From: Chakrabartia godavariana | GTDB lineage: Bacteria > Pseudomonadota > Alphaproteobacteria > Sphingomonadales > Sphingomonadaceae | Assembly: GCA_005518185.1 (NCBI GenBank) | Contig: RKSN01000002.1 | Location: 248,001 to 312,000, forward strand | Length of the DNA: 64,000 nucleotides | Direction of reading: 5' to 3' | Shown here: positions 17,305 through 18,134 of the stretch, piece by piece | Position numbering within the stretch: the first letter of the stretch is position 1 | Layout: each line of letters starts with the position of its first letter | Translations under genes and position numbers: made by a program | Notes under the pieces: model-generated | Told to the model about the DNA's origin: nothing | The model's input: only the letters and a program-made list of their open reading frames with translations | Database searches by the model: none

Positions 17305-17318
17305 TTGATCCGCATCAA
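17305..17318. promoter_or_regulatory. FNR/Anr-type box
   Basis: TTGATCCGCATCAA is an exact match to the consensus TTGAT-N4-ATCAA bound by FNR, Anr and FixK regulators under low oxygen. Its centre is about 73 bases upstream of the start codon of the exported-protein gene at 17385, a distance suitable for activation. The gene downstream is the only one in position to be controlled by it. Confidence 0.6.
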
Positions 17319-17336
17319 GGACCCACGCGCTGCACT

Positions 17337-17363
17337 TGCTAATGAGATCACTTCGCATTAGCA
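17337..17363. promoter_or_regulatory. 8-bp inverted repeat, Fur-like operator candidate
   Basis: TGCTAATG, an 11-base spacer and CATTAGCA form a perfect inverted repeat ending 21 bases before the start codon at 17385. The half-sites and AATGAGA segment resemble Fur boxes, but the centre differs from the consensus at about four positions. It overlaps where the -10 region and transcript start would lie, so it may be a repressor site working with the FNR-type box just upstream. Confidence 0.4.
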
Positions 17364-17384
17364 TAAGAGGCGAAGGGAATTTCG

Positions 17385-18134
17385 ATGCGCGTGTCTTTCA
17401 AATGGCTCACCGGCACGGCGGGCGGGCTGCTCATGATGATGGCGACCTCTGCAATGGCAGCGCCCGGCGTGGGCGAAAAAGTCTATGGCGCAACCATCGA
17501 CCCCGGCCTGACCGAAATCGAGGCGCGCTATGGCCAGTTGCAGGGCGGCCCCGATGGCGGCGAAAATGGCCTCGTCCTCGAACTGGCACATGGATTTTCA
17601 AGGAAATTCTACGCGGCGGCCCTGGTCGAGCTGGAAAAGGAACCCGGCCATGCCCGGGAGGTCGAGGCCGTCAGCTTTGAGGCGATCACGCCGCTTGGCC
17701 GGATTGATGCCCTGAAACTCGATGTCGCCTTTTACGGCGAATATGAAATCGTGCGACACGGTGCCGATGCGTTTGAAACCAAATTGCTGCTGGAACACCG
17801 CGCCGGAGCCTTTGACAGCCGGCTCAACCTGAAAGCGGCGAAGACCATGGAAAGTGGCCAGCCCCTTGCCTTCGGTTATGCCGCATCGGCGGACTGGGCG
17901 ACCGTTGGCGAGTTCCGCCTCGGCCTTGCTGCCTTTGGCGATCTGGGAACGACTGGGCACTTCCTGCCCCATGCCGAACATTTCGCAGGGCCAATCGTCA
18001 AGACCGAGCTGGAGCACCTTCCGGGCAAGAGCGAGCTGGAGATCGAGGCCGGATATCTGCGCGCATTCGGCGCGGCGCGGAACGATGCCGACGGACAATG
18101 GCGCCTTCTGCTGGAATGGGAAAAGCACTTCTGA
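17385..18134 (+). CDS. Orphan exported protein, probable beta-strand-rich envelope protein
   Basis: I do not recognise this 249-residue protein. It has a clear signal peptide (about 25 residues, FKWLTGTAGGLLMMMATSAMA, cleavage after AMAA). The mature part alternates short hydrophobic and charged strands (FYAAALVELEKE, DVAFYGEYEIV, FRLGLAAFGDLG, WRLLLEWEKHF) and ends in a Phe. That pattern suggests a small outer-membrane barrel or a periplasmic beta-sandwich. An AAGGGA ribosome-binding site precedes the ATG. The promoter region carries a perfect FNR-type box and an 8-bp inverted repeat, so expression probably responds to oxygen and perhaps iron. No neighbour explains its role. Confidence 0.7.
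   Translation: MRVSFKWLTGTAGGLLMMMATSAMAAPGVGEKVYGATIDPGLTEIEARYGQLQGGPDGGENGLVLELAHGFSRKFYAAALVELEKEPGHAREVEAVSFEAITPLGRIDALKLDVAFYGEYEIVRHGADAFETKLLLEHRAGAFDSRLNLKAAKTMESGQPLAFGYAASADWATVGEFRLGLAAFGDLGTTGHFLPHAEHFAGPIVKTELEHLPGKSELEIEAGYLRAFGAARNDADGQWRLLLEWEKHF

Follow-up and report, generated by a model that had tools for sequence, protein, structure and literature searches.

A predicted outer-membrane barrel behind FNR- and Fur-type boxes in Chakrabartia godavariana belongs to a family partly linked to FTR1 iron permeases

In the 3.17-Mb genome of Chakrabartia godavariana (five contigs), an exact FNR-type box and an inverted repeat precede the gene of a 249-residue exported protein. We consider it reasonably probable that this protein is an outer-membrane channel for iron entry, repressed by Fur and activated by FNR, and a member of a family that partners cupredoxins and FTR1 permeases. 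The barrel would widen the path by which iron, most likely as Fe2+ or in weakly bound form, reaches the periplasm, and in other proteobacteria the family would act as the outer-membrane partner of the cupredoxin and FTR1 permease module. Iron transport, the cargo, and the direction of transport are what we infer from the evidence presented below. The gene lies in a 64-kb stretch (contig 2, 248001-312000), referred to here as the window. The box, the repeat, and the exported ORF described in the initial annotation were all confirmed at their positions (Table 1).

Table 1. Features of the promoter and gene; positions are those of the window.
Feature	Positions	Strand	Basis or remark
FNR/FnrL-type box TTGATCCGCATCAA	17305..17318	.	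sequence; one of 9 TTGAYN4RTCAA genome sites
Fur-type box TGCTAATG-N11-CATTAGCA	17337..17363	.	recurs in relatives and before own iron genes
Putative ribosome-binding site AAGGGA	17373..17378	+	sequence inspection
Gene of the 249-aa exported protein, predicted 12-stranded beta-barrel	17385..18134	+	ORF and structure model
Signal peptide, residues 1-25 (AMA before A26)	17385..17459	+	sequence inspection
12 predicted beta strands, residues 42-248	17508..18128	+	structure model, fold matches

The inverted repeat (27 bp, centre 17350; footprint motif at 17336-17360) is, by its sequence, a Fur-type box, and Fur is predicted to bind it. The same motif is found shortly before the start codon in the promoters of three relatives (L001, L025, and L026), and these promoters, together with that of the window gene, were the source of the pattern TTGCNANTGANANNNNTTCGCANTA, which was composed by eye. 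With up to three mismatches, the pattern occurs at four sites in the whole genome and its reversed control at none. These sites belong to the window gene, hemA, a PepSY_TM gene (57 bp upstream), and the gene of a TonB siderophore receptor (46 bp upstream). The hemA site falls within the longest mechanical ORF, ahead of the 5-aminolevulinate synthase domain that starts at residue 76. In the partial receptor sequence, the Plug and barrel domains pass the Pfam cut-offs and TIGR01783 stays below its own. The strict 27-bp repeat pattern, at up to three mismatches, returned only its own site and was replaced by the looser, relatives-based one.

Promoters of relatives were scored on both strands of the 250 bases that precede the profile match, with 200 dinucleotide shuffles per locus. 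The four loci used for drawing the pattern were excluded from the count, and at up to three mismatches the pattern was present at 8 of the 16 other loci (L002, the promoter of which was already known when the pattern was drawn, L024, L139, L140, L142, L143, L145, and L146), with 0/200 hits in shuffles at every locus. The match lies on the reverse strand in L002 and L024. Weaker matches were found in L141 and L068 (four mismatches) and L144 (five), and the pattern was clearly missing from the 250 upstream bases, on either strand, of L147, L149, L150, and L151. The box of L148, which has three mismatches, was overlooked in this scoring because the gene is split over two frames. Such division, seen at L148:7085-7832 and in a second barrel gene at L160:5851-6681, may reflect decay or sequence errors. 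Fur-family proteins are encoded in the genome (PF01475 at 130 bits, a second at 38 bits). The iron half of the dual control proposed in the initial annotation holds up, the repeat being a recurring box common to relatives and iron genes, and iron control of the gene is well supported at the sequence level.

The FNR-type box is the sole exact TTGATN4ATCAA in the window. Two sites with no more than one mismatch were found in the window against 1.17 expected from shuffles; therefore, the one-mismatch motif is not significant over this length. The genome-wide search suggested earlier gave two exact sites (reversed control 0), 62 sites at one mismatch (reversed control 3), and nine sites of the wider FNR/FnrL form TTGAYN4RTCAA (reversed control 1). 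Since the one-mismatch sites are also in excess, the ratio of 9:1 alone proves no function, and part of the excess may reflect word composition. Boxes of the wider form were located before ccoN, adjoining a Crp/Fnr gene, between hemN and a usp-ompW gene pair (L105 around 1501; contig 3, 323825), and ahead of a response regulator gene; judged by eye, the remaining sites had no evident low-oxygen role. The Crp/Fnr protein encoded beside ccoN carries the motif CDTCLVRNRAIC, a CxxC-x7-C arrangement that we take to be the Cys-cluster motif of FNR/FnrL, and its best NCBIfam match is FnrL at 241.5 bits, below the cut-off of 300. OmpW, near the hemN box, is another small outer-membrane barrel. A gene resembling, by eye, the small subunit of protocatechuate 4,5-dioxygenase has one of the boxes close upstream of it (L102 around 1501; contig 1, 667738); it would be strange for such a box to govern a pathway that uses oxygen.

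Among the relatives, an exact FNR-type box was found at only 1 of the 19 other loci compared (2 of 20 with the window). In that locus, L025 of genome G081, the box begins 32 bp ahead of the Fur-type box, as compared with 31 bp in the window. A box with two mismatches lies 33 bp from the Fur-type box in L139 and one at 36 bp in L141; an exact box at matching spacing was absent from the other 18 loci. The closest homologue, from G056 (L024, 59-61% identical), has the Fur-type box (three mismatches, reverse strand) and no FNR box in its upstream region. Absence of the box from close relatives had been named beforehand as evidence against the annotation, and the outcome counts partly against it: the homologue in G056 lacks the box, and the gene itself was not found by single-sequence search in the 12 same-genus genomes listed, some of which are 76-84% complete. 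The box is probably real but lineage-limited. Oxygen control of the gene, as previously suggested, is plausible given the exact box, the FnrL-like protein, and the boxes at ccoN and hemN; the single exact box among 19 other loci weighs on the other side.

At promoters activated by FNR in the class II manner, the box is centred at -41.5. If this applies here, transcription starts near 17353, inside the repeat, and the Fur-type box spans about -16 to +11. The placement of the repeat at the -10 region and transcript start in the initial annotation fits this inferred geometry, but the scan for sigma-70-like promoters around the inferred start scored none. Iron-loaded Fur (Fur-Fe2+) would sit over the -10/+1 region and keep the gene repressed, and low iron would release the promoter from Fur. 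Oxygen-free FNR would bind upstream at about -41.5, recruit polymerase, and activate the gene. Repression by Fur together with activation by FNR would make expression peak when iron is scarce and oxygen low. Binding of both regulators at the predicted boxes and activation by FNR are read here from the promoter sequence.

Control by iron only, in which Fur represses an outer-membrane protein and the FNR-type box is a chance or inactive motif, seems to us rather unlikely. It would account for the rarity of the exact box among the loci compared and for the purely Fur-type promoter of G056, and it agrees with the near-match expected by chance in 64 kb and the abundance of one-mismatch sites in the genome. 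Against it speak the excess of the wider form over its control, the targets of known type among those nine sites, and the near-identical spacing of the two boxes in L025.

The N-terminus of the window protein (MRVSFKWLTGTAGGLLMMMATSAMA) is export-type by inspection, and the protein matched no Pfam or NCBIfam family at E <= 1; FTR1 (PF03239), OprB/FeoP, CopB/PcoB, and Phenol_MetA_deg were among the Pfam families without a match. A structure model built with an 11-row alignment (A1) comprises 12 strands with a mean pLDDT of 86.5 and a pTM of 0.81. Its best fold matches are closed barrels, namely FapF (Z 20.5), the COG4313 channel 4RL8 (19.9), KdgM (19.1), and NanC (18.4); autotransporter domains follow closely, and PcoB reaches 13.4. 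Foldseek also matches the model to outer-membrane barrels. The beta-barrel guessed at in the initial annotation is borne out by this prediction. The likeness to 4RL8 (COG4313/Phenol_MetA_deg), FapF, and PcoB lies in the fold, whereas identity to the window protein is 9-10%, and a sequence search of the PDB with the family profile returned no matches. Residues invariant in the 11 rows include E44, E46, E66, E84, E99, D113, E119, and K133. Seven of these eight charged residues are on the less hydrophobic, polar strand face; the exception, E99, is on a strand without clear alternation, and the invariant Y165 and G185 are on the opposite face. The polar face with its invariant acids can be read in the model as an acidic lumen. 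A terminal aromatic residue is a signal of outer-membrane beta-barrels, and the window protein ends in F, as do 8 of the 11 rows in all, the other three ending in L. We predict with good confidence that the protein is a 12-stranded outer-membrane barrel, and an outer-membrane location would follow.

The protein is not the orphan it was first taken for: it has relatives that together form a barrel family without a name, in part linked to FTR1 permeases and cupredoxins. Relatives were found by single-sequence search in 10 of 148 genomes, and by profile search in 32 of 385 genomes of a class sample and 28 of 397 of a family sample, the own genome being counted in each. We examined 66 loci: 42 from the initial and class-level searches, 20 newly taken from the family sample, and 4 from plasmids. 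The class-level matches comprised 31 genomes besides the own one, of which 30 were taken in (31 loci, G449 twice); the exclusions were a 38-aa piece in G263 and an additional piece in G469. The 28 family-level genomes comprised 20 new ones, 6 already included (the own genome among them), and G709 and the weak G678, which were left out. L031 is a fragment, L070 and L071 are short contigs, and L027 and L028 are near-copies. The plasmid search gave no match with the window protein and eight records with a fused-type barrel, four of which were examined. Both the profile and the query of the plasmid search included FTR1-linked members and so may favour finding more such loci; the plasmid loci, having been found with a fused-type query, are no independent sample.

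An FTR1 iron permease was present at 20 of the 66 loci, 19 by profile and L161 by the annotation 'iron transporter' alone. By set, these are 15 of 42, 1 of the 20 family-level loci, and all 4 plasmid loci, in which FTR1 adjoins the barrel. FTR1 is fused in frame upstream of the barrel at eight loci (L027, L028, L029, L070, L071, L073, L076, and L082) and encoded separately nearby at seven (L026, L072, L075, L077, L079, L080, and L081), nearly 4 kb from the barrel in L072. In L141, a cytochrome c-FTR1 gene lies directly downstream of the barrel gene. A cupredoxin was found at 18 of the 20 FTR1-linked loci (the exceptions being L141 and L160) and as the only partner at four more (L030, L068, L069, and L097). 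Gene order varies among the FTR1-linked loci, and the gene set is constant. In Alteromonas and Pseudoalteromonas, the overlapping genes run cupredoxin, FTR1, barrel; at L159, L161, and L162, genes with the annotations response regulator and ATP-binding protein precede the set and may form a two-component system dedicated to it.

In the fused relatives, the FTR1 part (PF03239) is a domain separate from the barrel. It matches nearly the whole PF03239 model in L028 and L029, and in the other six fusions it was identified by a three-sequence FTR1 profile; FREVLEA- and LREGxE-like motifs are kept in all eight rows. Between FTR1 and the barrel runs an extra hydrophobic stretch, which by inspection ends A-x-A in six of the eight and G-N-A in the near-identical pair L027/L028. 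This stretch looks like an internal signal peptide, at which the chain may be cleaved. When a fused protein was modelled, helices came first and 12 strands after them (pLDDT 61, pTM 0.43); being of low confidence, the model was used only for this order.

In the tree, the bootstrap of which had not settled, the window protein falls in a group of 17 sphingomonad rows (96/89). The nearest rows outside it are L026, divergent beside an FTR1/cupredoxin pair, and L068, divergent beside a cupredoxin (joined at 99/100); the module link therefore comes close to the window protein. L141, with its FTR1 neighbour, falls inside the group. The labels for fused and nearby FTR1 were not clustered beyond shuffles, so a single origin of the fusion is not claimed. 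Neither FTR1 nor cupredoxin is encoded within the window, the newly added family-level loci include no cupredoxin (0/20), and no link to either was found at L074, L078, L083-L096, and L098. The branch of the window gene appears mostly to have lost, or never to have had, the FTR1 link. FTR1 was found elsewhere in 7 of 18 barrel-bearing family genomes and in 2 of 18 barrel-free ones, a weak test (one-sided Fisher p 0.06) with barrel-free genomes hand-picked from the negatives. In the 11 barrel-bearing genomes with no FTR1 found anywhere, the barrel therefore serves other permeases or does something else. The only FTR1 detected in the own genome is a cytochrome c-FTR1 protein (670-aa frame) on another contig. 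Its gene (L037:6457-8466) lies at about 71.5-73.5 kb of contig 4, a 183-kb contig that is perhaps a plasmid or second replicon.

These 11 genomes fit a barrel that carries another solute (copper, an aromatic acid, or an oligosaccharide) or is structural, its iron control reflecting the state of the cell, and so do the fold matches to channels of other cargo (KdgM, NanC, PcoB, and 4RL8), as fold shows no function. Moreover, a distant relative, L096, passes the Phenol_MetA_deg cut-off, so the barrel may share descent with that family. We nevertheless regard such a role as improbable in view of the repeated FTR1 linkage with cupredoxin, the in-frame fusions, and the Fur-type box. The linkage supports a role in iron, though not a direction of transport. 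Export of iron or iron-binding matter is very improbable: the barrel model gives no direction, and by their titles one article presents the copper barrel PcoB in uptake (PMC9210255) and another in outer-membrane copper efflux (PMC12509749), yet with a Fur-type box at the inferred -10/+1 the gene should be repressed in iron-rich cells, just where an exporter would be needed, and FTR1 is treated as an importer family in the accessible parts of PMC2631029 and PMC9174327.

For the channel as an iron-entry route, the FTR1- and cupredoxin-linked kin make an outer-membrane partner of iron uptake a better description than the 'envelope protein of low-oxygen life' of the initial annotation. A further-reaching reading, put forward tentatively and at less than even chances, is that the family is part of an undescribed envelope-spanning iron module of proteobacteria. 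The module would consist of a cupredoxin, an FTR1 permease, and a 12-strand channel dedicated to it in the outer membrane; in some cases, permease and channel would be made together as an FTR1-barrel polyprotein. The extra membrane helix of the fusion would double as a signal peptide, at which cleavage would release the barrel to the outer membrane. In this scheme, the window gene would be the free-standing, Fur- and FNR-controlled form of the module's barrel.

General porins are usually credited with letting ferrous iron across the outer membrane. E. coli feo is under FNR control. In the accessible part of PMC9174327, a summary of FTR1 uptake systems, no outer-membrane barrel is seen as part of the FTR1 modules (EfeUOB, FetMP, FtrABCD, and P19-cFtr1). 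Some barrel relatives resemble these modules in lying beside an FTR1/EfeU-type permease and Cupredoxin_1, but here a barrel recurs, sometimes fused, and the window gene, unlike the modules, stands alone. In acidithiobacilli, the porin-like FeoP occurs with feoABC and a predicted Fur box, and a cupredoxin goes with an EfeU gene in Leptospirillum (both from the available text of PMC2631029). FeoP is likewise a porin-like protein tied to an iron transporter and a Fur box; however, it is of the OprB family and acts with Feo (FeoPABC), whereas the window protein has no Pfam match and the linked relatives go with FTR1. As far as the available portion of PMC7315122 goes, OmpC/OmpF and FeoB of E. coli form one ferrous route of channel and inner-membrane permease; unlike the proposed barrel, OmpC/OmpF are general porins under OmpR. 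FnrL of Rhodobacter sphaeroides binds upstream of feoABC (PMC4263372, in the part accessible), likewise an FNR-type regulator over an iron importer, but feoABC encodes inner-membrane FeoB and no barrel. Titles and abstract openings of the open-access literature, with subscription papers outside the scope, contained no FTR1-linked or FTR1-fused barrel, and a search on a Fur box or FNR over feoAB in anaerobic Sphingomonas found no paper. If the proposal is true, a conserved barrel that goes with FTR1, at times as a fusion, would represent a dedicated iron entry route, and the tie suggests a function for 'hypothetical' proteins of Alteromonadales and Burkholderiales plasmids. The fused genes would offer a clear-cut example of proteins of the two membranes, inner and outer, being synthesised as a single chain.

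A deep barrel group comes from small genomes of 0.9-1.4 Mb (L086, L087, L089, L090, and L093), and neither FTR1 nor a cupredoxin was found in the stretches examined there. In several sphingomonads (L002, L025, L139, L143, and L149), the barrel gene is divergent from a thioredoxin reductase-like gene, identified by Pfam match in L025 and by eye in the others. An alpha/beta hydrolase gene follows the barrel gene in L002 and L025 (Pfam match in L025 only).
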